Source: a virus. From it: a stretch of 25,332 nucleotides of DNA. Every line of letters starts with the position of its first letter. Position 1 is the first letter of the stretch. The stretch lies in IMG/VR virus record IMGVR_UViG_3300034096_000509, positions 1-25,332 of that record; one strand, written 5' to 3'. This document shows, one piece after another, positions 4,496 through 22,769 of this stretch. The notes under the pieces were generated by a model that was not told the DNA's origin, ran no database searches, and worked only from the letters and a program-made list of their open reading frames with translations. A program made the position numbers and the translations under genes.

Positions 4496-5869
4496 CTAGT
4501 CGAGAGGATCGGGCGTGTAGAACGCACGAATCAGGAGCGACATCCACGGGCGGAGCCACATATAGCTGGCCTTCCGCTCGTACCGGCGCATCCAGGTCAC
4601 ACCACGGTCGAAGTACTGCCAAGTGTCCGTACCCGACAGTTCGCGAGTGCTGACATCGAAGTCGACCATGAAGCCGAACGTCTCCGCCAGCGACTTCGAC
4701 ACCAGATAGGTGTTGGTCGCGGCGTAGGCAGCCTGGGCGTCATTGTAGGTCCGAGTCGTCCCGCCAATGTCGACGTAGGCTCCGCTCTTGTAGAACTTCA
4801 CCAGCTCGTCATACACCCAGCGACTCATCAGCGGATTGGTCGACCAGCCGTCTCGGCCCATTCGATCAGTCACTGCTGCACACTCGCAGTCCTGGCCGGA
4901 CTGGGCGCGAGTGATCGACTTCGGTGCAATCATATCCAGGTACGGATACTTCTGGCAGTCTCGCGTCAACATGACCTGATAGCCATTTCCGCAGTCAATC
5001 GGGAAACAGTTATACGGATCACGCATGTCTTCATAGACCTGCTCGATAGCACACAGCGGAGCCTCGGAGCAGCCGTTGAGCTTCAGAGAAGGATTCTCGA
5101 TCAGGTTTGTCCACGGAGCACCCGAACCCTTGTAGCCAGACGAGTAGGTCGTACCGTCGTAGCTGTAGGGGTAGCTGCACATGCCAGCACCCTTGATGTC
5201 GAACATCAGGCGAGCGGCATTCTTCTCGTCGATAACATCGAACCAGCGCACACGCTGCTCGATCTGTCGACGCACCTCGCCCGTGGGGTCCACGCACACG
5301 AGGTTGCGATGGAGGGCGAAGCTGAAGCTGACGTAGTTCGGCTTCGGCATCGTCCAGCAACGCTGGCGACCAAGCTGGTAGAACCGTGCTGGCTCCTCAT
5401 CCTCCTCCGACTTTCCGCACAGGTCCGGCGGGGGATCCATGGGGAACTCGCACAGCTTGCGGTCGTTGTAGCTGGAGCAGGGGGCATCCACCCGCGTGAC
5501 CAGACCACGCAGCAGCGTGGGGGCCATGTCGCAGGTGAACTGAGCCATCTGCCGCGTCACGCACCGATCCAGGAACTGGTCGAAGTAGCTCGCCTTGATG
5601 GCAGCCTCTGCCGATTCCTTGAGTGGCTTCAGCGTTTCCTTGCTCTGGATCCGGCCCGAGTTGTTGAACAGGTCGAACACCTGCTTCGGCATGATCCGCT
5701 CGAAGAGATGCTTGTAGTCCAGCTCGTTGAAGTCCAGCTCCCGGTCGAGGGCGCGATTGTCTACATCGCGAAAGACTTCTTGCAGGCGTTCCTGGCTAGT
5801 CACCGTGCCGTTCGGGGCGGCACTACGGTAGCCTTCGACCAGGAAGTCGTTAATGTTGGTCTTGGACAT
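4496..5869 (-). CDS. probable major capsid protein
   Basis: The 457-residue protein follows TerL, portal, protease/scaffold and a small decoration-like protein, the standard place for the major capsid protein in tailed phages. It has one of the strongest ribosome binding sites in the window (AGGAGGACATT before ATG), as expected for the most abundant virion protein. No sequence signature proves an HK97 fold, so the call rests on size, order and translation signal. It is unusually Cys-rich for a capsid protein (15 Cys by eye, including PCSSY, CGNG and CEC), which hints at disulfides or metal binding. Alternative: a major structural protein other than the capsid. A 755-codon frame on the opposite strand here is a shadow. 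Confidence 0.68.
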   Translation of the reverse strand: MSKTNINDFLVEGYRSAAPNGTVTSQERLQEVFRDVDNRALDRELDFNELDYKHLFERIMPKQVFDLFNNSGRIQSKETLKPLKESAEAAIKASYFDQFLDRCVTRQMAQFTCDMAPTLLRGLVTRVDAPCSSYNDRKLCEFPMDPPPDLCGKSEEDEEPARFYQLGRQRCWTMPKPNYVSFSFALHRNLVCVDPTGEVRRQIEQRVRWFDVIDEKNAARLMFDIKGAGMCSYPYSYDGTTYSSGYKGSGAPWTNLIENPSLKLNGCSEAPLCAIEQVYEDMRDPYNCFPIDCGNGYQVMLTRDCQKYPYLDMIAPKSITRAQSGQDCECAAVTDRMGRDGWSTNPLMSRWVYDELVKFYKSGAYVDIGGTTRTYNDAQAAYAATNTYLVSKSLAETFGFMVDFDVSTRELSGTDTWQYFDRGVTWMRRYERKASYMWLRPWMSLLIRAFYTPDPLD

Positions 5870-6427: not shown

Positions 6428-6886
6428 TTAGAAGCGGTTCTGAAAACCAATCTTATTGATGGGGGCCGAACCGCTGGCATACGCTGCGCCACTCGTACTG
6501 TCGGGCGTCGAGACACCCGGCTCCGGCTGGCTGACATTGGCGGTCTTGCTGGCCTTGATTTCTGCCAGCACTTCACGGATCTGCTCTTCTCCAAGCGGAA
6601 GAAGGCTCTCGACAAGCCTCTCGCTGACAGCAGAGCCTAGGACTTCTTTCGCCGCTTCGTGGATGTGCTTTTGCTTCGCCGCACGTTCTTCCACCGCCCG
6701 ATACTCGGAAAGCGTCGACTCGACTTCATTTAGCTTCTCCTGGAGAGATTCCTTCTCAGCCACGACCTTGGCAAGTTCTTTCTGGGCCACGGTCAACTCG
6801 TTCTTCGCGGTATCCTCGGCGAGGATTTCGTTGCGCAGCTGCTCGACCAGTTCGGCGTGCTGCGTCTTCAGGGTCTTAAGATCCAT
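6428..6886 (-). CDS. nested in-frame scaffold protein from internal start (candidate)
   Basis: Met169 of the protease gene (ATG at 6886) is preceded by GGAG with nine bases between it and the ATG (GGAGACAGTACAG). Starting there would give a 152-residue protein made only of the coiled-coil scaffold part. Phage lambda makes its scaffold Nu3 the same way from inside the protease gene C, so the arrangement has a well-known precedent. What is seen is the ATG, its spacing and the domain boundary; that it is used is inference. Confidence 0.42.
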   Translation of the reverse strand: MDLKTLKTQHAELVEQLRNEILAEDTAKNELTVAQKELAKVVAEKESLQEKLNEVESTLSEYRAVEERAAKQKHIHEAAKEVLGSAVSERLVESLLPLGEEQIREVLAEIKASKTANVSQPEPGVSTPDSTSGAAYASGSAPINKIGFQNRF

Positions 6887-7390
6887 CTGTACTGTCTCCG
6901 ATTCAAACAATGAGCGGTTCGTTCCGCCTCGATAGACAGCGGCGACCCCGTCCACTTCGATTAAACGCTCGACATGGAGGATACCCCCCTCGTCCACTTC
7001 TCCCTGGTACACACTGACCTCATGGGACAGAGGGACGTTTTCGGGAAAATGCTCCGCGTCGTAGCAGATCTTTTCCGTTAGCTCGTCCGCAGGGTTCAGG
7101 TGCCAGTCGTAATAACTCGCGGCCTTGTCGGTCCCGAGACTACGAGCTGTTCCGTTTCGCAGCTGGCCGTTCTGGCTGTGGTAGTCACGGTCTTCGCGGT
7201 TATGTCCACCACGAACCGTCACAGGCAGATTTTCGCAGAGAACCGAGGAGTCCTTGATCGCAGCATCCTCGTAGACTCGGCCATTGCGACTGGTGCGCCC
7301 AAGGACTTTCACGCCCTTGATGATCCAGTTTTCCCGGTCCACAGTGGAACCGCGAAAGTCGAAGCTCTCGACAAGTCGTTCTGGTTTCAT
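6428..7390 (-). CDS. prohead protease fused to scaffold protein
   Basis: Residues 1-165 resemble phage prohead (head maturation) proteases: the SRNGRVY motif near residue 34, a His in RGGH near residue 63, and DAEHFPENVPLSHEVSV near residues 110-126, where SH is the likely nucleophile region, followed by a closing SLFES. From memory this pattern is also found in planctomycete phage-like proteins. Residues 175-290 are a long charged coiled coil rich in Glu and Lys, typical of scaffold proteins. The protease would cleave scaffold and capsid precursor during head maturation. The ATG at 7390 has AGGAG four bases upstream. An in-frame internal start (listed separately) may make free scaffold. Assignment of catalytic residues is by similarity only. 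Confidence 0.75.
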   Translation of the reverse strand: MKPERLVESFDFRGSTVDRENWIIKGVKVLGRTSRNGRVYEDAAIKDSSVLCENLPVTVRGGHNREDRDYHSQNGQLRNGTARSLGTDKAASYYDWHLNPADELTEKICYDAEHFPENVPLSHEVSVYQGEVDEGGILHVERLIEVDGVAAVYRGGTNRSLFESETVQMDLKTLKTQHAELVEQLRNEILAEDTAKNELTVAQKELAKVVAEKESLQEKLNEVESTLSEYRAVEERAAKQKHIHEAAKEVLGSAVSERLVESLLPLGEEQIREVLAEIKASKTANVSQPEPGVSTPDSTSGAAYASGSAPINKIGFQNRF

Positions 7391-19092: not shown

Positions 19093-19109
19093 CACAAGGA
19101 ACCATGACC

Positions 19110-19910
19110 ATGACCACCAGCACCAGCACCAGCACCAGCACCACGGGCAAGGGCAAGGGCAAGGGCAAGCCCCGCAAGCCCACCACCCACCGTGGTGTCA
19201 TCGTGTGGCAAGGGGCTTCCCTGATCGACGGTTCCCCTATCGTCGTAATCGCGACCATGAAAACGTCAAACCGCAAGACTGGTGACATGGTGCAAACTTG
19301 GATTCTCCGTACCGATATGACACCAGTCGACGCGGTATCGACTGGTGCGGACGATGCTATCTGCGGGGATTGCCCACTACGCGGGGTGGGCGGAAAGGAT
19401 CGGGCTTGCTATGTCAACGTCGGTCAAGCCCCGCAAGCGGTTTACCGCGCGTTCCATCGTGGTGCCTACCCGGTTTTTGATGCCGAAAAACATGGGTGGT
19501 TGTTCGCCGGTCGTGGTCTGCGTTGTGGTGCCTACGGGGATCCGACCGCAAGCCCTCTGGATGCTTGGTTGCCCCTCATCGCGATCACGGGGAAGCGCAG
19601 GACGGGTTACACCCACCAGTGGCGCAACTGCGATCAGGCGTGGCGCGAATTCCTGATGGCGTCGGTAGAGACACTCCCGGGTGCGGAAACCGCCATCGCA
19701 GCGGGATGGCGTACGTTCCGCCTGCGTCGTGCCGATCAGCCCCTGATGGCGGGGGAACGCGTCTGCCCCGCGTCTGATGAGGGTGGGAAGCGGAAGACCT
19801 GCGACCAGTGTTTCGGCTGCTCTGGCACGCAGTATGGCAAGGGCGGTTACGCCATCGTCGGCCACGGATCCGCCCCCAAGCTCCACGCGATCAGTCTGGT
19901 GATGGCATAG
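19110..19910 (+). CDS. conserved phage protein with Cys clusters (GP88-like family)
   Basis: This 266-residue protein opens with low-complexity (TS)n then (GK)n stretches (residues 2-20), encoded by hexanucleotide repeats. The rest matches a widespread phage family by pattern: NRKTGDMVQTWIL (54-66), CGDCPLR (85-91), CYVNVGQAP (100-108), RCGAYGDPTASPLDAW (138-153), TGYTHQWR (165-172), LMASVET (182-188), GWRTFRLRR (199-207), and GERVCPASDEGG...CDQCFGC (216-237). Seven Cys in two groups suggest a metal or iron-sulfur site. Function is unknown to me. Two in-frame ATGs (19104, 19110) exist; AAGGA sits three and nine bases from them, so the second is preferred. Confidence 0.72.
   Translation: MTTSTSTSTSTTGKGKGKGKPRKPTTHRGVIVWQGASLIDGSPIVVIATMKTSNRKTGDMVQTWILRTDMTPVDAVSTGADDAICGDCPLRGVGGKDRACYVNVGQAPQAVYRAFHRGAYPVFDAEKHGWLFAGRGLRCGAYGDPTASPLDAWLPLIAITGKRRTGYTHQWRNCDQAWREFLMASVETLPGAETAIAAGWRTFRLRRADQPLMAGERVCPASDEGGKRKTCDQCFGCSGTQYGKGGYAIVGHGSAPKLHAISLVMA
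19116..19169 (+). repeat. two hexanucleotide microsatellites inside a coding N terminus
   Basis: ACCAGC units repeat about 4.5 times (19116-19142), then GGGCAA units about four times (19145-19169), encoding Thr-Ser and Gly-Lys repeats. Because units are six bases, slippage would lengthen or shorten the N terminus without frameshift. Confidence 0.85.
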
Positions 19911-19921
19911 CCTATAGACCA

Positions 19922-19986
19922 GTCGAAACGTCCCTGATATGGGGGCGTCACTCCGGAGTAGCCTACCGGGGTCTGACGAGACAGGC
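19922..19986 (+). ncRNA. type II hammerhead ribozyme, copy 1
   Basis: All conserved hammerhead parts are present in type II order. GUC (5' strand of stem II, 19922) is followed by GAAA (19925), stem III (ACGUCCC / GGGGCGU, with one U-G pair, ending at 19948), cleavage-site C at 19949, stem I (ACUCCGG / CCGGGGU, 19950-19972, one U-G pair), CUGACGA (19973-19979) and GAC, the 3' strand of stem II. Loop I AGUAGCCUA can pair through GCCU with AGGC at 19983-19986. Cleavage is predicted between 19949 and 19950. It lies 11 bases after the stop of the Cys-cluster gene and upstream of the 97-residue gene. Confidence 0.93.
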
Positions 19987-20019
19987 CAAACCACAACCAC
20001 ATGTACAAGGGGCAGAACG

Positions 20020-20313
20020 ATGAAGGTCAAAGCGAGCATCAACGGGGAGTTTCTGGTGGGAAGCATGACCAAGGAGAACACTTCGGTATCTATGTGCTGC
20101 GTGCGGGCGATGATCAGGACGGAGGGCTTTAAAGTCACGCTGCGTGTAGACACCGATGGTCGGCACTTCAACTATCTGTGGGTGACGGGGTCCAAGGCAG
20201 CGGCGCAGAGACTGTGCGATCTGCTACGCGGCATGTCGCACTACGACTATTCCTACGCCGTGGCGAAGGGGCTCATCGTCAACAGCCCGAAGGACATGGT
20301 GTCTGACCTCTAG
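20020..20313 (+). CDS. 97-residue protein, member of a small early-gene family
   Basis: No named family is recognised. The C-terminal half (DTDGRHFNYLWVTGSKAAAQRLCDLLRGMSHYDYSYA) resembles the 88-residue protein near 24754 (PDGDVAHLCVTGSQASLRRIEDYVAGYQLGYDRGY), suggesting paralogues with a beta-hairpin followed by a helix. The ATG at 20020 has AAGGGG seven bases upstream and lies downstream of ribozyme copy 1. The stop codon's last base is also the first base of ribozyme copy 2. Confidence 0.78.
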   Translation: MKVKASINGEFLVGSMTKENTSVSMCCVRAMIRTEGFKVTLRVDTDGRHFNYLWVTGSKAAAQRLCDLLRGMSHYDYSYAVAKGLIVNSPKDMVSDL

Positions 20314-20376
20314 TCGAAACGTCCCGCTATGGGGCGTCAATCCCGCGCTGGCCTGCGGGGTTCTGATGAGACAGGC
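20313..20376 (+). ncRNA. type II hammerhead ribozyme, copy 2
   Basis: GUC (20313) GAAA (20316), stem III ACGUCCC / GGGGCGU with a GCUAU loop, cleavage-site C at 20338, stem I AAUCCCGC / GCGGGGUU (eight pairs, 20339-20362), CUGAUGA (20363-20369) and GAC. Stem I differs from copies 1 and 3 in both arms, keeping pairing. Position 7 of the core is U here and C in the other copies, which is the one freely variable core base. Loop I GCCU (20351-20354) pairs with AGGC (20373-20376). The first base of the element is the last base of the upstream TAG stop. Confidence 0.94.
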
Positions 20377-20395
20377 TGACACAAGGAGAATGACC

Positions 20396-20911
20396 ATGAA
20401 CGACAATGACCGCTTGGTAGCGACGAAACTGCTGGAACTGGTGGTCCAGCGCGGCTTGGTGATGAACGTCGACTACGGTGATGGGCCGGTGCTCGACCGC
20501 CCCTCCGGCGACATCCAACTTCTGCTGCGGGAGATGAACGCCACGGGTGACGAACTGCTGACGCTGCACGATGCACACACCGGCAACGTGGTGGGCTGCG
20601 TGCGTCTCATCTACGGGAACGGGGACTGGGAACTGATCGCCGACAACTCAGACAGTGCGGAGCCGCTCTGCCAGGAGGTGTCCGACTGGTGCTTCCAGCA
20701 GGAGCGGTTGATCACCCGCGTGGCCGTCAGCCTATGGGGCTGGGACCGCGCGCAACTCTTCGACCCCGGCGTGGACGAGCGCCGCGCCTGCGACCTCTAC
20801 GCAGCCGACCACGAGTACTGGCTGAACGACTCAGGGAGCACCACGCTCACCGTCTGGTACTGCACGACTGATGGCGAACCCTACTGGTCCCACCAGCGCA
20901 AGATTTCCTGA
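20396..20911 (+). CDS. 171-residue early protein of unknown function
   Basis: No family is recognised. The start chosen is the second ATG of an MTM pair (20390 and 20396), which has the better spacing to AAGGAG; the same AATGACCATG context precedes two other early genes. The sequence is acidic and probably alpha/beta (NDRLVATKLLELVVQRGLVMNVDY, then RLIYGNGDWELIADN, then AVSLWGWDRAQLFDPG). The C terminus is beta-like with TTLTVWYCTTDGEPYW. It follows ribozyme copy 2. Confidence 0.78.
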   Translation: MNDNDRLVATKLLELVVQRGLVMNVDYGDGPVLDRPSGDIQLLLREMNATGDELLTLHDAHTGNVVGCVRLIYGNGDWELIADNSDSAEPLCQEVSDWCFQQERLITRVAVSLWGWDRAQLFDPGVDERRACDLYAADHEYWLNDSGSTTLTVWYCTTDGEPYWSHQRKIS

Positions 20912-20929
20912 CCTCCTCCTCCTCCTCCT
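20912..20929 (+). repeat. (CCT)6 tract directly after a stop codon
   Basis: Six CCT units begin immediately after the TGA of the 171-residue gene and precede the next ribosome binding site by about 12 bases. This spacer has no ribozyme, unlike its neighbours. Confidence 0.8.
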
Positions 20930-20952
20930 CCACGCAACGAAAGGGTTTGACA

Positions 20953-21159
20953 ATGAACGAATTCAACTGGACGACGCAGCTACGGAAGCGGGTCGACCGC
21001 ATCAAGCAGATCGCGCTGGAACGATACGAGAGGGGTGGTGATGTCATCATCGAGACCATGACGGATGAGGAGATTGCAACGGAGTTCTCCTCAGTGCGAG
21101 ATGCGACGGGCTTCATGCGGGACCACTTCGATGTGCGTGAGGAGCGTGGGGGTTGGTAA
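20953..21159 (+). CDS. 68-residue basic/acidic helical protein
   Basis: The product (MNEFNWTTQLRKRVDRIKQI...) is largely helical and charged, with a helical C-terminal half (TDEEIATEFSSVRDATGFMRDHF). Its leader CAACGAAAGGGTTTGACA is identical to that of the 75-residue gene at 22542, with GAAAGGG as the ribosome binding site. Function is unknown. Its TAA stop directly abuts ribozyme copy 3. Confidence 0.74.
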   Translation: MNEFNWTTQLRKRVDRIKQIALERYERGGDVIIETMTDEEIATEFSSVRDATGFMRDHFDVREERGGW

Positions 21160-21222
21160 GTCGAAACGCCCCGCTACGGGGCGTCATCCCGGAGTAGCCT
21201 ACCGGGGTCTGACGAGACAGGC
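21160..21222 (+). ncRNA. type II hammerhead ribozyme, copy 3
   Basis: GUC (21160) GAAA (21163), stem III ACGCCCC / GGGGCGU (all Watson-Crick, GCUAC loop), cleavage-site C at 21185, stem I AUCCCGG / CCGGGGU (21186-21208), CUGACGA (21209-21215) and GAC. The third pair from the end of stem III is C-G here but U-G in copies 1 and 2. Loop I GCCU (21197-21200) pairs with AGGC (21219-21222). It begins on the base after the upstream stop codon. Confidence 0.95.
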
Positions 21223-21241
21223 TGACACCAGGGGAATGACC

Positions 21242-22420
21242 ATGACCACGATTTACGCAACGCCCGATGGACTGGATCGACTGCAAGACCGCGTGCAGAA
21301 GCACGCCAGCAAGGCCCGCAAGTTGGGCCAACCGGCCCCCACCATCCAGACGCAGGTGATCACGGTGATCCCCGTCGTGGATGGACTGTTCGACCACTGG
21401 TCGCAGTACAGTTTCTACCGCGTGACGGTCAGCGGCACCGTCCCCCACATCAACGGCTGGACGCCCGTGGCCCGCGTCGAGCCGGTCCAAGGAGGCACCA
21501 TGGTCCACCTCGCACCGGGGGTCGATGCGGTCGATCCGAGGTGGCGGGAGTGGGGCAACACCTGCGAGCACTGCCGGACGAAACGGCGACGGACCGATCT
21601 GGTGGTGCTGCGGCATGACGACGGGCGCGAGATGGCGGTGGGCCGGAAGTGCCTTGCCGATTTTCTGGGGGCCGAGGGAGCGGAGGTGTCGGTCGACTGG
21701 TGGTTTAAGCCGATCCAGTTCGGCGACGACGACTACCTCGGAGGCATGGGGTCGGTGCTGCCGACACCCGCGCAGGCCATCGCCCATGCCAGCGCGGTGA
21801 TCCGCGCAATCGGTTACGTCAGCAAGGCGGCTGCCGAACGAGATGGCGTGCTGCCAACCTCGCACCCGGTCCAGTTGTTTTTGCGAGACCAGGAGCAGTT
21901 CCAGCGACAGTACGGCAGGGTGCAGGTCGACGACCACGACATGCAGACCGCGTCGGAGGTGCTGGGCTGGTGCCTGTCGCAACGCGACTCGACCAGCGAC
22001 TACCTGCGGAACCTCGCGTTAATCTGCTCGCAGGACTTCGTGGCGTGGAAGCACCTAGCCTACGTCGTCTCCTCCATCCCTGCGTGGCAACGTGCCATGG
22101 CGGAGAAGATGGAGCGTGCCGCAACGAACGAGAAGCCCAAGGAGTGGATCGAGCAGGACAAGGTCAAAGGACTGCGGGCCACGATCCGCCGCGCGACGGT
22201 CAACGACGGCTACTACGGCACGACCACCATCATCTCGATGATCGCCGAGGACGAGGGGCAGCAATACCCGCTCGTCTGGTTTGCCAGCGGCACGCACGAT
22301 TGGCGACCTGGAGAGCAGGTGGAGGTGAGCGGCACCGTGAAGGACCGCCGGGACGACGACCGCTATGGCAAGCAGACCATCTTGACCAGATGTAGGCTAG
22401 TTGAGGTTGACGCTCAATAG
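21242..22420 (+). CDS. zinc-finger and OB-fold-like phage protein
   Basis: The 392-residue protein has a short zinc-binding-like segment CEHCRTKRRRTDLVVLRHDD...VGRKCLADFLG (Cys108, Cys111, Cys137) of a type seen in many phage proteins. Residues about 315-392 read as an OB-like beta-barrel (RATIRRATVNDGYYGTTTIISM, QYPLVWFASG, GEQVEVSGTVKDRR, TILTRCRLVEV). Together they suggest a nucleic-acid-binding protein, possibly single-strand binding; this is inference. The middle is helical. ATG at 21242 is the second of a pair (AATGACCATG) behind AGGGGA. It lies between ribozyme copies 3 and 4. Confidence 0.75.
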   Translation: MTTIYATPDGLDRLQDRVQKHASKARKLGQPAPTIQTQVITVIPVVDGLFDHWSQYSFYRVTVSGTVPHINGWTPVARVEPVQGGTMVHLAPGVDAVDPRWREWGNTCEHCRTKRRRTDLVVLRHDDGREMAVGRKCLADFLGAEGAEVSVDWWFKPIQFGDDDYLGGMGSVLPTPAQAIAHASAVIRAIGYVSKAAAERDGVLPTSHPVQLFLRDQEQFQRQYGRVQVDDHDMQTASEVLGWCLSQRDSTSDYLRNLALICSQDFVAWKHLAYVVSSIPAWQRAMAEKMERAATNEKPKEWIEQDKVKGLRATIRRATVNDGYYGTTTIISMIAEDEGQQYPLVWFASGTHDWRPGEQVEVSGTVKDRRDDDRYGKQTILTRCRLVEVDAQ

Positions 22421-22450
22421 CCTGCGGTGTATGATGTGGTTCCAAGCACA

Positions 22451-22514
22451 GCCGAAACGCCCCTACGATGGGGCGTCATCGCCCGGTGACCTCGGGCGGT
22501 CTGACGAGGCAGGT
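22451..22514 (+). ncRNA. type II hammerhead ribozyme, copy 4 (diverged)
   Basis: GCC (22451) GAAA (22454), stem III ACGCCCC / GGGGCGU with a UACGAU loop, cleavage-site C at 22477, stem I AUCGCCCG / CGGGCGGU (eight pairs, 22478-22500), CUGACGA (22501-22507), GGC. Relative to the other copies stem II has changed on both sides (GUC/GAC to GCC/GGC) and so has the pseudoknot (GCCU/AGGC to ACCU/AGGU, 22489-22492 with 22511-22514). These paired changes strongly support the fold. It lies 30 bases after the stop of the 392-residue gene. Confidence 0.94.
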
Positions 22515-22541
22515 TACCTCGACCAACGAAAGGGTTTGACA

Positions 22542-22769
22542 ATGGCAACGAAAGAACCGATGCGGCGAATCCTCTTTTTCCCGGTCTCGCAGGAGGACCG
22601 CATCATGTCTCTGTTCGCCGAGTTCGTCGAGAACAACAGGATCCGGTGCGATTTTCGCGTGGTCGGAGACGGACAGTGGCGCATGCTTCAGGCCCGCGCG
22701 TATCCGCAGGCGATGCGCCGCCTGGATGACTGGGCGACGGGCTTCGCCGCACGCGGTGAACTGAGCTAA
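22542..22769 (+). CDS. 75-residue early protein, small-family member
   Basis: The product (MATKEPMRRILFFPVSQED...) is alpha/beta in appearance, with FRVVGDGQWRMLQARAYPQAMRRLDDWATGF matching the beta-hairpin plus helix layout of the 97- and 88-residue proteins. Its leader CAACGAAAGGGTTTGACA matches that of the 68-residue gene exactly. It follows ribozyme copy 4. No named family is known to me. Confidence 0.74.
   Translation: MATKEPMRRILFFPVSQEDRIMSLFAEFVENNRIRCDFRVVGDGQWRMLQARAYPQAMRRLDDWATGFAARGELS

Follow-up and report, generated by a model that had tools for sequence, protein, structure and literature searches.

Type II hammerhead ribozymes (Rfam family Hammerhead_II, RF02276) occur in clusters that flank single prophage genes, an arrangement for which Perreault et al. 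in 2011 proposed a function in the processing of long phage transcripts (PMC3088659). Cleavage was observed in vitro for three of the clusters and in E. coli for one (PMC3088659), 14 of 18 published consensus hammerheads were active in vitro, and the biological role of hammerheads in phages has been termed an open question (PMC6155905; PMC10085705). We have analysed a complete virus record of 25,332 bases (IMG/VR IMGVR_UViG_3300034096_000509; the window), possibly a genome fragment, in which four elements, HHR1 to HHR4, had been described as type II hammerheads by a first-pass annotation. The window carries portal and terminase genes on its minus strand and, from ~19,100 onward, a plus-strand block of small genes, presumably early to judge from its layout, in whose spacers the four elements lie. 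The same annotation considered a ribozyme set organising one phage operon unusual, a view that does not hold, as such clusters were published in 2011 (PMC3088659) and 5–11 copies are present in other phages analysed here; several ribozymes in one phage block is an already known kind of arrangement, and the window is a good instance of it. Features that go beyond the annotation are fused stop codons, a pseudoknot between loop I and the 3' tail, and gene exchange at ribozymes. The stereotyped fusion of ribozymes to upstream stop codons is new, as are the junctions mapped inside ribozymes. Neither feature was found in the part of the PMC3088659 text consulted, and no paper linking hammerheads with gene exchange or fused stop codons was found in a literature search that reached few subscription papers.

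Identity and anatomy of HHR1 to HHR4

A scan of the window at permissive thresholds against 4227 Rfam families gave a match to RF02276 at each of the four elements, all of them (45.5–52.6 bits) above the curated gathering cut-off of 37 bits, and returned neither a fifth RF02276 copy nor any other weighty match in the window (Table 1). The assignment of these four spacers to type II hammerheads by the first-pass annotation is thereby confirmed, its four cut sites agree with the positions between GUC and A computed here, and, as it also stated, hammerheads are absent in front of all other genes of the block. A descriptor of our own (stem II - GAAA - stem III - UH - stem I - CUGANGA - stem II) recovered exactly HHR1 to HHR4 in the window, each with a pseudoknot 4 or more nucleotides (nt) long, and gave 0 matches in 1.01 Mb of shuffled window. 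An extra base between A9 and stem II, as in Paenibacillales genome G099, hides a ribozyme from this descriptor, the counts of which are therefore lower bounds.

Stems I and III are closed by loops and stem II is open in all four elements, the layout of RF02276, and the core positions C3-U-G-A-N-G-A9, G12-A-A, A15.1-U16.1 and H17 are present in each as CUGACGA or CUGAUGA, GAAA and GUC. Loop I pairs with the 3' tail in every element, through GCCU/AGGC in HHR1 to HHR3 and ACCU/AGGU in HHR4; with respect to the other three, HHR4 is altered in both stem II and the pseudoknot, and both changes are compensated. Combined, the covariance model, core, stems and covarying pseudoknot strongly support the identity of HHR1 to HHR4 as type II hammerheads, an assignment that appears secure from sequence.

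All four ribozymes are on the plus strand in spacers of co-directional genes, and a single transcript probably spans the block. Each had been described as lying between a stop codon and the next ribosome binding site, and stops, Shine-Dalgarno-like sequences and ATGs were indeed located at all four, the ATGs being the first bases of genes B, C, E and F (Table 1). The G of the gene B TAG stop is the first base of HHR2 stem II, and the TAA stop of gene D directly abuts HHR3. No GC-rich stem followed by a T run, as in an intrinsic terminator, was scored at any of the four sites on the plus strand, no sigma-70-like promoter was found at HHR1 to HHR3, and a promoter-like match before HHR4 (22407-22435) is weak and not above chance.

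Stop-codon fusion and pseudoknot covariation across phages

A strict sequence pattern found type II hammerheads in 61 viral contigs as compared with 6 loci across 257 Gb of genomes from bacteria and archaea. Placement relative to stop codons was scored as a stop that closes a reading frame 60 or more codons long and lies within 6 nt 5' of GAAA, with shifted positions as control. A stop abuts or overlaps stem II in 97 of 148 phage and prophage ribozymes (66%), with a control mean of 5.0 (3%). The collection pattern demanded GTC/GAC in stem II, and the fusion was therefore retested on copies outside the pattern, in which it is present in 55 of 81 with a control value of 3.2; for the same reason, constancy of stem II is not judgeable from the collected set. 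Overlap with the first stem II base, through a stop that ends 2 nt before GAAA, is seen in 39 of 141 ribozymes, 38 times with TAG. At the other side, the distance from ribozyme end to start codon has a median of 26 nt. Thus, with a stop at its 5' edge and a start shortly 3', the ribozyme occupies the spacer almost exactly.

The loop I/tail pseudoknot, which is required by neither the collection pattern nor the descriptor, provides a measure of pairing within individual ribozymes. A loop matches its own tail over 4 nt or more in 127 of 141 ribozymes, as compared with 37.9 ± 4.9 when tails are re-dealt. Paralogues in contig L036 that share the same stem I combine loop TTGGCT with tail AAGCC and loop GTGGTT with tail AAACC. 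Pairing is also kept in the ribozyme of G005, a relative of the window, in which the normally essential core pair A15.1-U16.1 is swapped to U-A (GAAT...ACA), a natural variant reported to be self-cleaving but slower and less efficient (PMC3088659). Because stems I and III vary with pairing kept and the pseudoknot covaries within phages, selection acts on RNA structure, not DNA identity.

Four copies in one phage is not extreme. Copy number, counted in 50 of the viral contigs, reaches 11 within ~5 kb (G041), with 7 in G012, G016 and G026 and 6 in G013; spacing within contigs has a median of 572 nt, and no mixing of strands was observed among contigs with multiple ribozymes. The RF02276 family was detected in 3 of 250 and 3 of 295 sampled bacterial genomes. 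Other self-cleaving classes (twister, pistol, hatchet, HDV-like, type I/III hammerhead) were absent, the window and 25 loci giving only RF02276 and tRNA above cut-off. No convincing match to ribozyme-containing DNA was found in cultured phages, and a search by proteins for further sister phages of ribozyme-rich contigs returned only the same contigs or one distant contig without ribozymes.

Several individual occurrences were noted within this distribution. Halorubrum tailed virus 25 (MZ334521; L041 6687-6760, minus strand), an isolated haloarchaeal virus, has a type II hammerhead above cut-off, and a related hammerhead is found in Halorubrum halodurans contig L101; the virus is a possible laboratory model. 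In the Paenibacillus order (L113 and L115-L117; genomes G099 and G284), type II hammerheads have a U between A9 and stem II (CUGACGA-U-GGC), with a cluster of three in G099. Four type II hammerheads lie between small genes at L103 4970-7376, in a contig filed under a Patescibacteria metagenome-assembled genome. In two related ~153-kb contigs, L049 (2119-2255 and 4090-4207) and L032 (3645-3770), ribozymes occur just after or just before strong promoter-like repeats.

Gene gain, loss and exchange at ribozyme spacers

Contigs L063 and L081 are ~98.7% identical, but two ribozymes of L063 enclose an additional gene. The two contigs differ there by exactly 827 nt, with both junctions in a 14-nt repeat, ACTGATGAGACAGG, which forms the 3' core of the ribozyme, and the flanking sequences are identical for 1244 nt and 221 nt. 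The L081 ribozyme is a hybrid, composed of the body of the first L063 ribozyme and the tail of the second, and the pseudoknot is kept in both versions because loop I, GGCCTAACCC, can pair with either tail. A distant relative, L077, has the same loop, tail and downstream gene, which makes loss in L081 the simpler reading. An assembly artefact is unlikely, as assembly words are usually longer than this 14-nt repeat and the contigs originate from two metagenomes. Gene gain, loss or swapping at ribozyme spacers is seen less sharply in the pairs L025/L060, L006/L050 and L014/L020 as well; with the window and G005, this amounts to five comparisons, a single one of which is mapped to the base. A spacer of L050 (~4985-5010) contains a stem III-like hairpin alone, GGGGGCTTCGGCCCCC, where the spacer behind the same gene in its relative L006 holds a full ribozyme, and looks like a decayed or not-yet-formed ribozyme.

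Nine contigs related to the window share a terminase at 84–95% identity, and among them an RF02276 family match (35.3 bits) was found in G005 only; the gene block is comparable in G005 and G006. Block genes A, D, F (Table 1) and G (79%) are conserved in these relatives, and the genes directly behind HHR1, HHR2 and HHR3, namely B, C and E, are not conserved in the G005/G006 block. Homologs of gene C are sited elsewhere in both relatives, without a ribozyme, and a gene E counterpart in G006 (54% identity) is placed downstream, likewise without one. Gene order is D-ribozyme-F in G005 versus D-HHR3-E-HHR4-F in the window, gene E not being between D and F in G005. The G005 ribozyme is the counterpart of HHR4, which it matches in stem II, stem I and tail, and in the window HHR3 together with gene E sits between D and this F-side ribozyme.

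Spacers of G005 and G006 comparable to those of HHR1 and HHR2 contain a different repeated hairpin instead. This hairpin, GGGCAGCACCTCGACCAGTTCGGCGTGCTGCC, has no Rfam match, fills spacers of G005, G006 and G007, including the HHR1-equivalent spacer, and is possibly a functional stand-in for the ribozyme. A match to it of 28 of 32 bases is found in the window at 6833-6864 on the plus strand, within a minus-strand structural gene (6428-7390); the hairpin would thus be either antisense to the mRNA of that gene or derived from it.

Genes A to F gave no Pfam matches; A, C and E are members of PHROG families of unknown function, and a search of viral contigs gave no relatives of gene E.

Table 1. 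Positions of ribozymes, neighbouring genes and spacer hairpins; cut sites are predicted and stem lengths are in base pairs (bp)
Feature	Sequence	Position	Strand	Description
HHR1	window	19922..19986	+	stem II GUC/GAC, GAAA, stem III, cut 19949/19950, stem I, CUGACGA, tail AGGC pairs with loop I GCCU; stems II/III/I 3/9/7; RF02276 at 19921-19990 (+), 51.8 bits, E 3.6e-8
HHR2	window	20313..20376	+	stem II GUC/GAC; cut 20338/20339; tail AGGC; stems II/III/I 3/8/9; RF02276 at 20312-20380 (+), 47.7 bits, E 4.3e-7
HHR3	window	21160..21223	+	stem II GUC/GAC; cut 21185/21186; pseudoknot tail AGGCU; stems II/III/I 3/8/7; RF02276 at 21159-21226 (+), 52.6 bits, E 2.3e-8
HHR4	window	22451..22514	+	stem II GCC/GGC; pseudoknot ACCU/AGGU; cut 22477/22478; stems II/III/I 3/7/9; RF02276 at 22450-22518 (+), 45.5 bits, E 1.6e-6
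Gene A	window	19104..19910	+	268 aa, conserved phage family phrog_2554; upstream of HHR1; stop 19908-19910; 91% identity in G005
Gene B	window	20020..20313	+	97 aa; between HHR1 and HHR2; TAG stop 20311-20313; no close ortholog in G005/G006
Gene C	window	20396..20911	+	171 aa; after HHR2; PHROG member; 39% identity to G005/G006 homologs
Gene D	window	20953..21159	+	68 aa; no ribozyme in front; TAA stop 21157-21159; 87% identity in G005
Gene E	window	21242..22420	+	392 aa, phrog_2319; between HHR3 and HHR4; stop 22418-22420
Gene F	window	22542..22769	+	75 aa; after HHR4; 87% identity in G005 and G006
G005 ribozyme	L088	8895-8964	minus	between D and F
Hairpin copies	L088	9851-9882, 9497-9528	minus	
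Hairpin copies	L091	13417-13448, 12991-13022	minus	
Hairpin copies	L098	8916-8947, 9342-9373	plus	

Interpretation and relation to known systems

The explanation that we favour, and consider likely, is that these elements are active ribozymes with two roles, cutting the polycistronic mRNA into pieces with hairpin ends and providing joints at which gene cassettes are swapped. Anatomy, placement, covariation and the within-ribozyme junctions in relatives are shown by sequence comparison, and cutting of the polycistronic mRNA in the cell is the best inference. HHR1 to HHR4 would be transcribed with the neighbouring genes and each would cut itself after GUC, giving predicted message pieces that end with gene A, contain B, contain C and D, contain E, and begin with F. 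The upstream piece would have a hairpin end shortly after the stop codon with a 2',3'-cyclic phosphate, and the downstream piece would have a 5'-OH and start with a hairpin ahead of its own Shine-Dalgarno site, a hairpin being expected at both new ends because the type II layout closes stems III and I with loops. With only the 3-bp stem II linking them, the cut pieces should separate, and their separation, insulation and any effects on stability are presumed. The likely benefit would be a standard leader and trailer for each gene or gene pair, independent of its neighbours, so that genes could be swapped without disturbing the rest of the block, and the repeated ribozyme cores may double as short homologies where swaps occur.

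Several observations weigh against this combined explanation. Close relatives of the window have one ribozyme (G005) or none that was found (G006), and the ribozymes are thus not essential to the phage type. The junction is mappable to the base in only one sister pair, and breakpoints between genes are common in phages generally. In the clearest pairs each ribozyme half does track its neighbour, the 5' half going with the gene upstream and the 3' half with the gene downstream, but no consistent difference was seen over all homologous pairs. When folded without credit for the pseudoknot, the native structure is 1.4–5.3 kcal/mol above the minimum for HHR1 to HHR3 and equal to it for HHR4.

It is quite possible that the ribozymes are active in ordinary mRNA maturation only, tuning the stability or expression of single genes, and that overlap with gene gain and loss is coincidental, both being inter-genic. 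The stop - ribozyme - Shine-Dalgarno - ATG order, the covariation of the pseudoknot and the mRNA-processing proposal of 2011 are all consistent with maturation alone, as are the L032/L049 ribozymes that adjoin TTGACA-N17-TATAAT promoter-like sequences, once as a transcript leader. The patchy presence among close relatives and the junction in a ribozyme core repeat that yields a hybrid also fit a role in exchange, however. The converse, that the elements are mainly DNA recombination repeats, acting in boundaries or shuffling with ribozyme activity incidental or lost, would account for the five comparisons with gene gain, loss or swaps and for near-identical copies within one phage (L053/L082), but is improbable given the wide variation of stems I and III under preserved pairing and the covariation of the pseudoknot within individual phages. 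A reading as intrinsic terminators, or as ordinary hairpins that stabilise mRNA, is disfavoured as very unlikely: a strong GC-rich stem III does follow stop codons closely, and one L050 spacer retains such a hairpin alone, but no terminator-like site exists at the four elements on the plus strand and a simple hairpin would have no need of the GAAA/CUGANGA core or of the pseudoknot. Chance matching, for which nothing speaks beyond the simplicity of the motif, is refuted by E-values of 2e-8 to 2e-6 across 4227 families, the empty shuffled window, the confinement of all copies to spacers on the coding strand and the excess of loops that match their own tails.

The combination of mRNA cutting and cassette exchange can be taken further, tentatively, to propose that gene cassettes of these phages are interchangeable and that the type II hammerhead is the universal joint linking them. 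A gene would carry as its trailer half a stop codon fused to GUC-GAAA-stem III and as its leader half stem I-CUGANGA-GAC-pseudoknot tail-Shine-Dalgarno, such that stem III would lie entirely in the trailer half and loop I with the tail entirely in the leader half. Pairing between halves would be limited to the short, nearly constant stem II, and therefore any trailer with any leader could make a working ribozyme; exchange by recombination in the core repeats would leave every mRNA still cut to standard ends. The notion that ribozyme halves follow their genes is retained only within this proposal, because of the lack of a consistent difference across pairs. The stop-fused placement and the gain and loss of whole genes at within-ribozyme breakpoints suggest an answer on the role of hammerheads in phages, namely standard cut joints and modular gene blocks.

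RiboJ-type insulators, engineered from a satellite RNA hammerhead, use a hammerhead cut before a gene to give a standard 5' leader whatever lies upstream. Standardisation of the leader would be alike in HHR1 to HHR4, for which insulation is a presumption. Shuffling of genes at repeated stem-loops has been described for the promoter early stem-loop (PeSL) of T4-like phages (Arbiol 2010; Comeau 2014, as cited in PMC4503421). The likeness lies in small, repeated, structured spacers, at which the five comparisons above suggest that phage genes may also shuffle here, whereas PeSL combines a promoter with a terminator-like stem-loop and HHR1 to HHR4 are ribozymes that lack a promoter at three of four sites. 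The hammerhead HHphage of haloviruses HF1/HF2 likewise lies directly in front of an early phage gene, and a transcript 5' end has been mapped at most 3 nt from its cleavage site (PMC3088659), but it is a single copy with a variant core, unlike the four-copy window. The closest system is RF02276 type II itself (PMC3088659), with which HHR1 to HHR4 share the core, element order, open short stem II, loop I/tail pseudoknot and prophage setting; no essential difference was found, stem II being the canonical 3 bp (GUC/GAC or GCC/GGC), and they belong to the same family. In the prophage clusters of Agrobacterium tumefaciens, Azorhizobium caulinodans and Clostridium scindens, several ribozymes likewise flank single genes of one transcript (PMC3088659). 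Cleavage has been shown for those clusters in vitro, and for A. tumefaciens also in E. coli; high densities are not given for the prophage clusters, as compared with 4 copies here and up to 11 in other phages.

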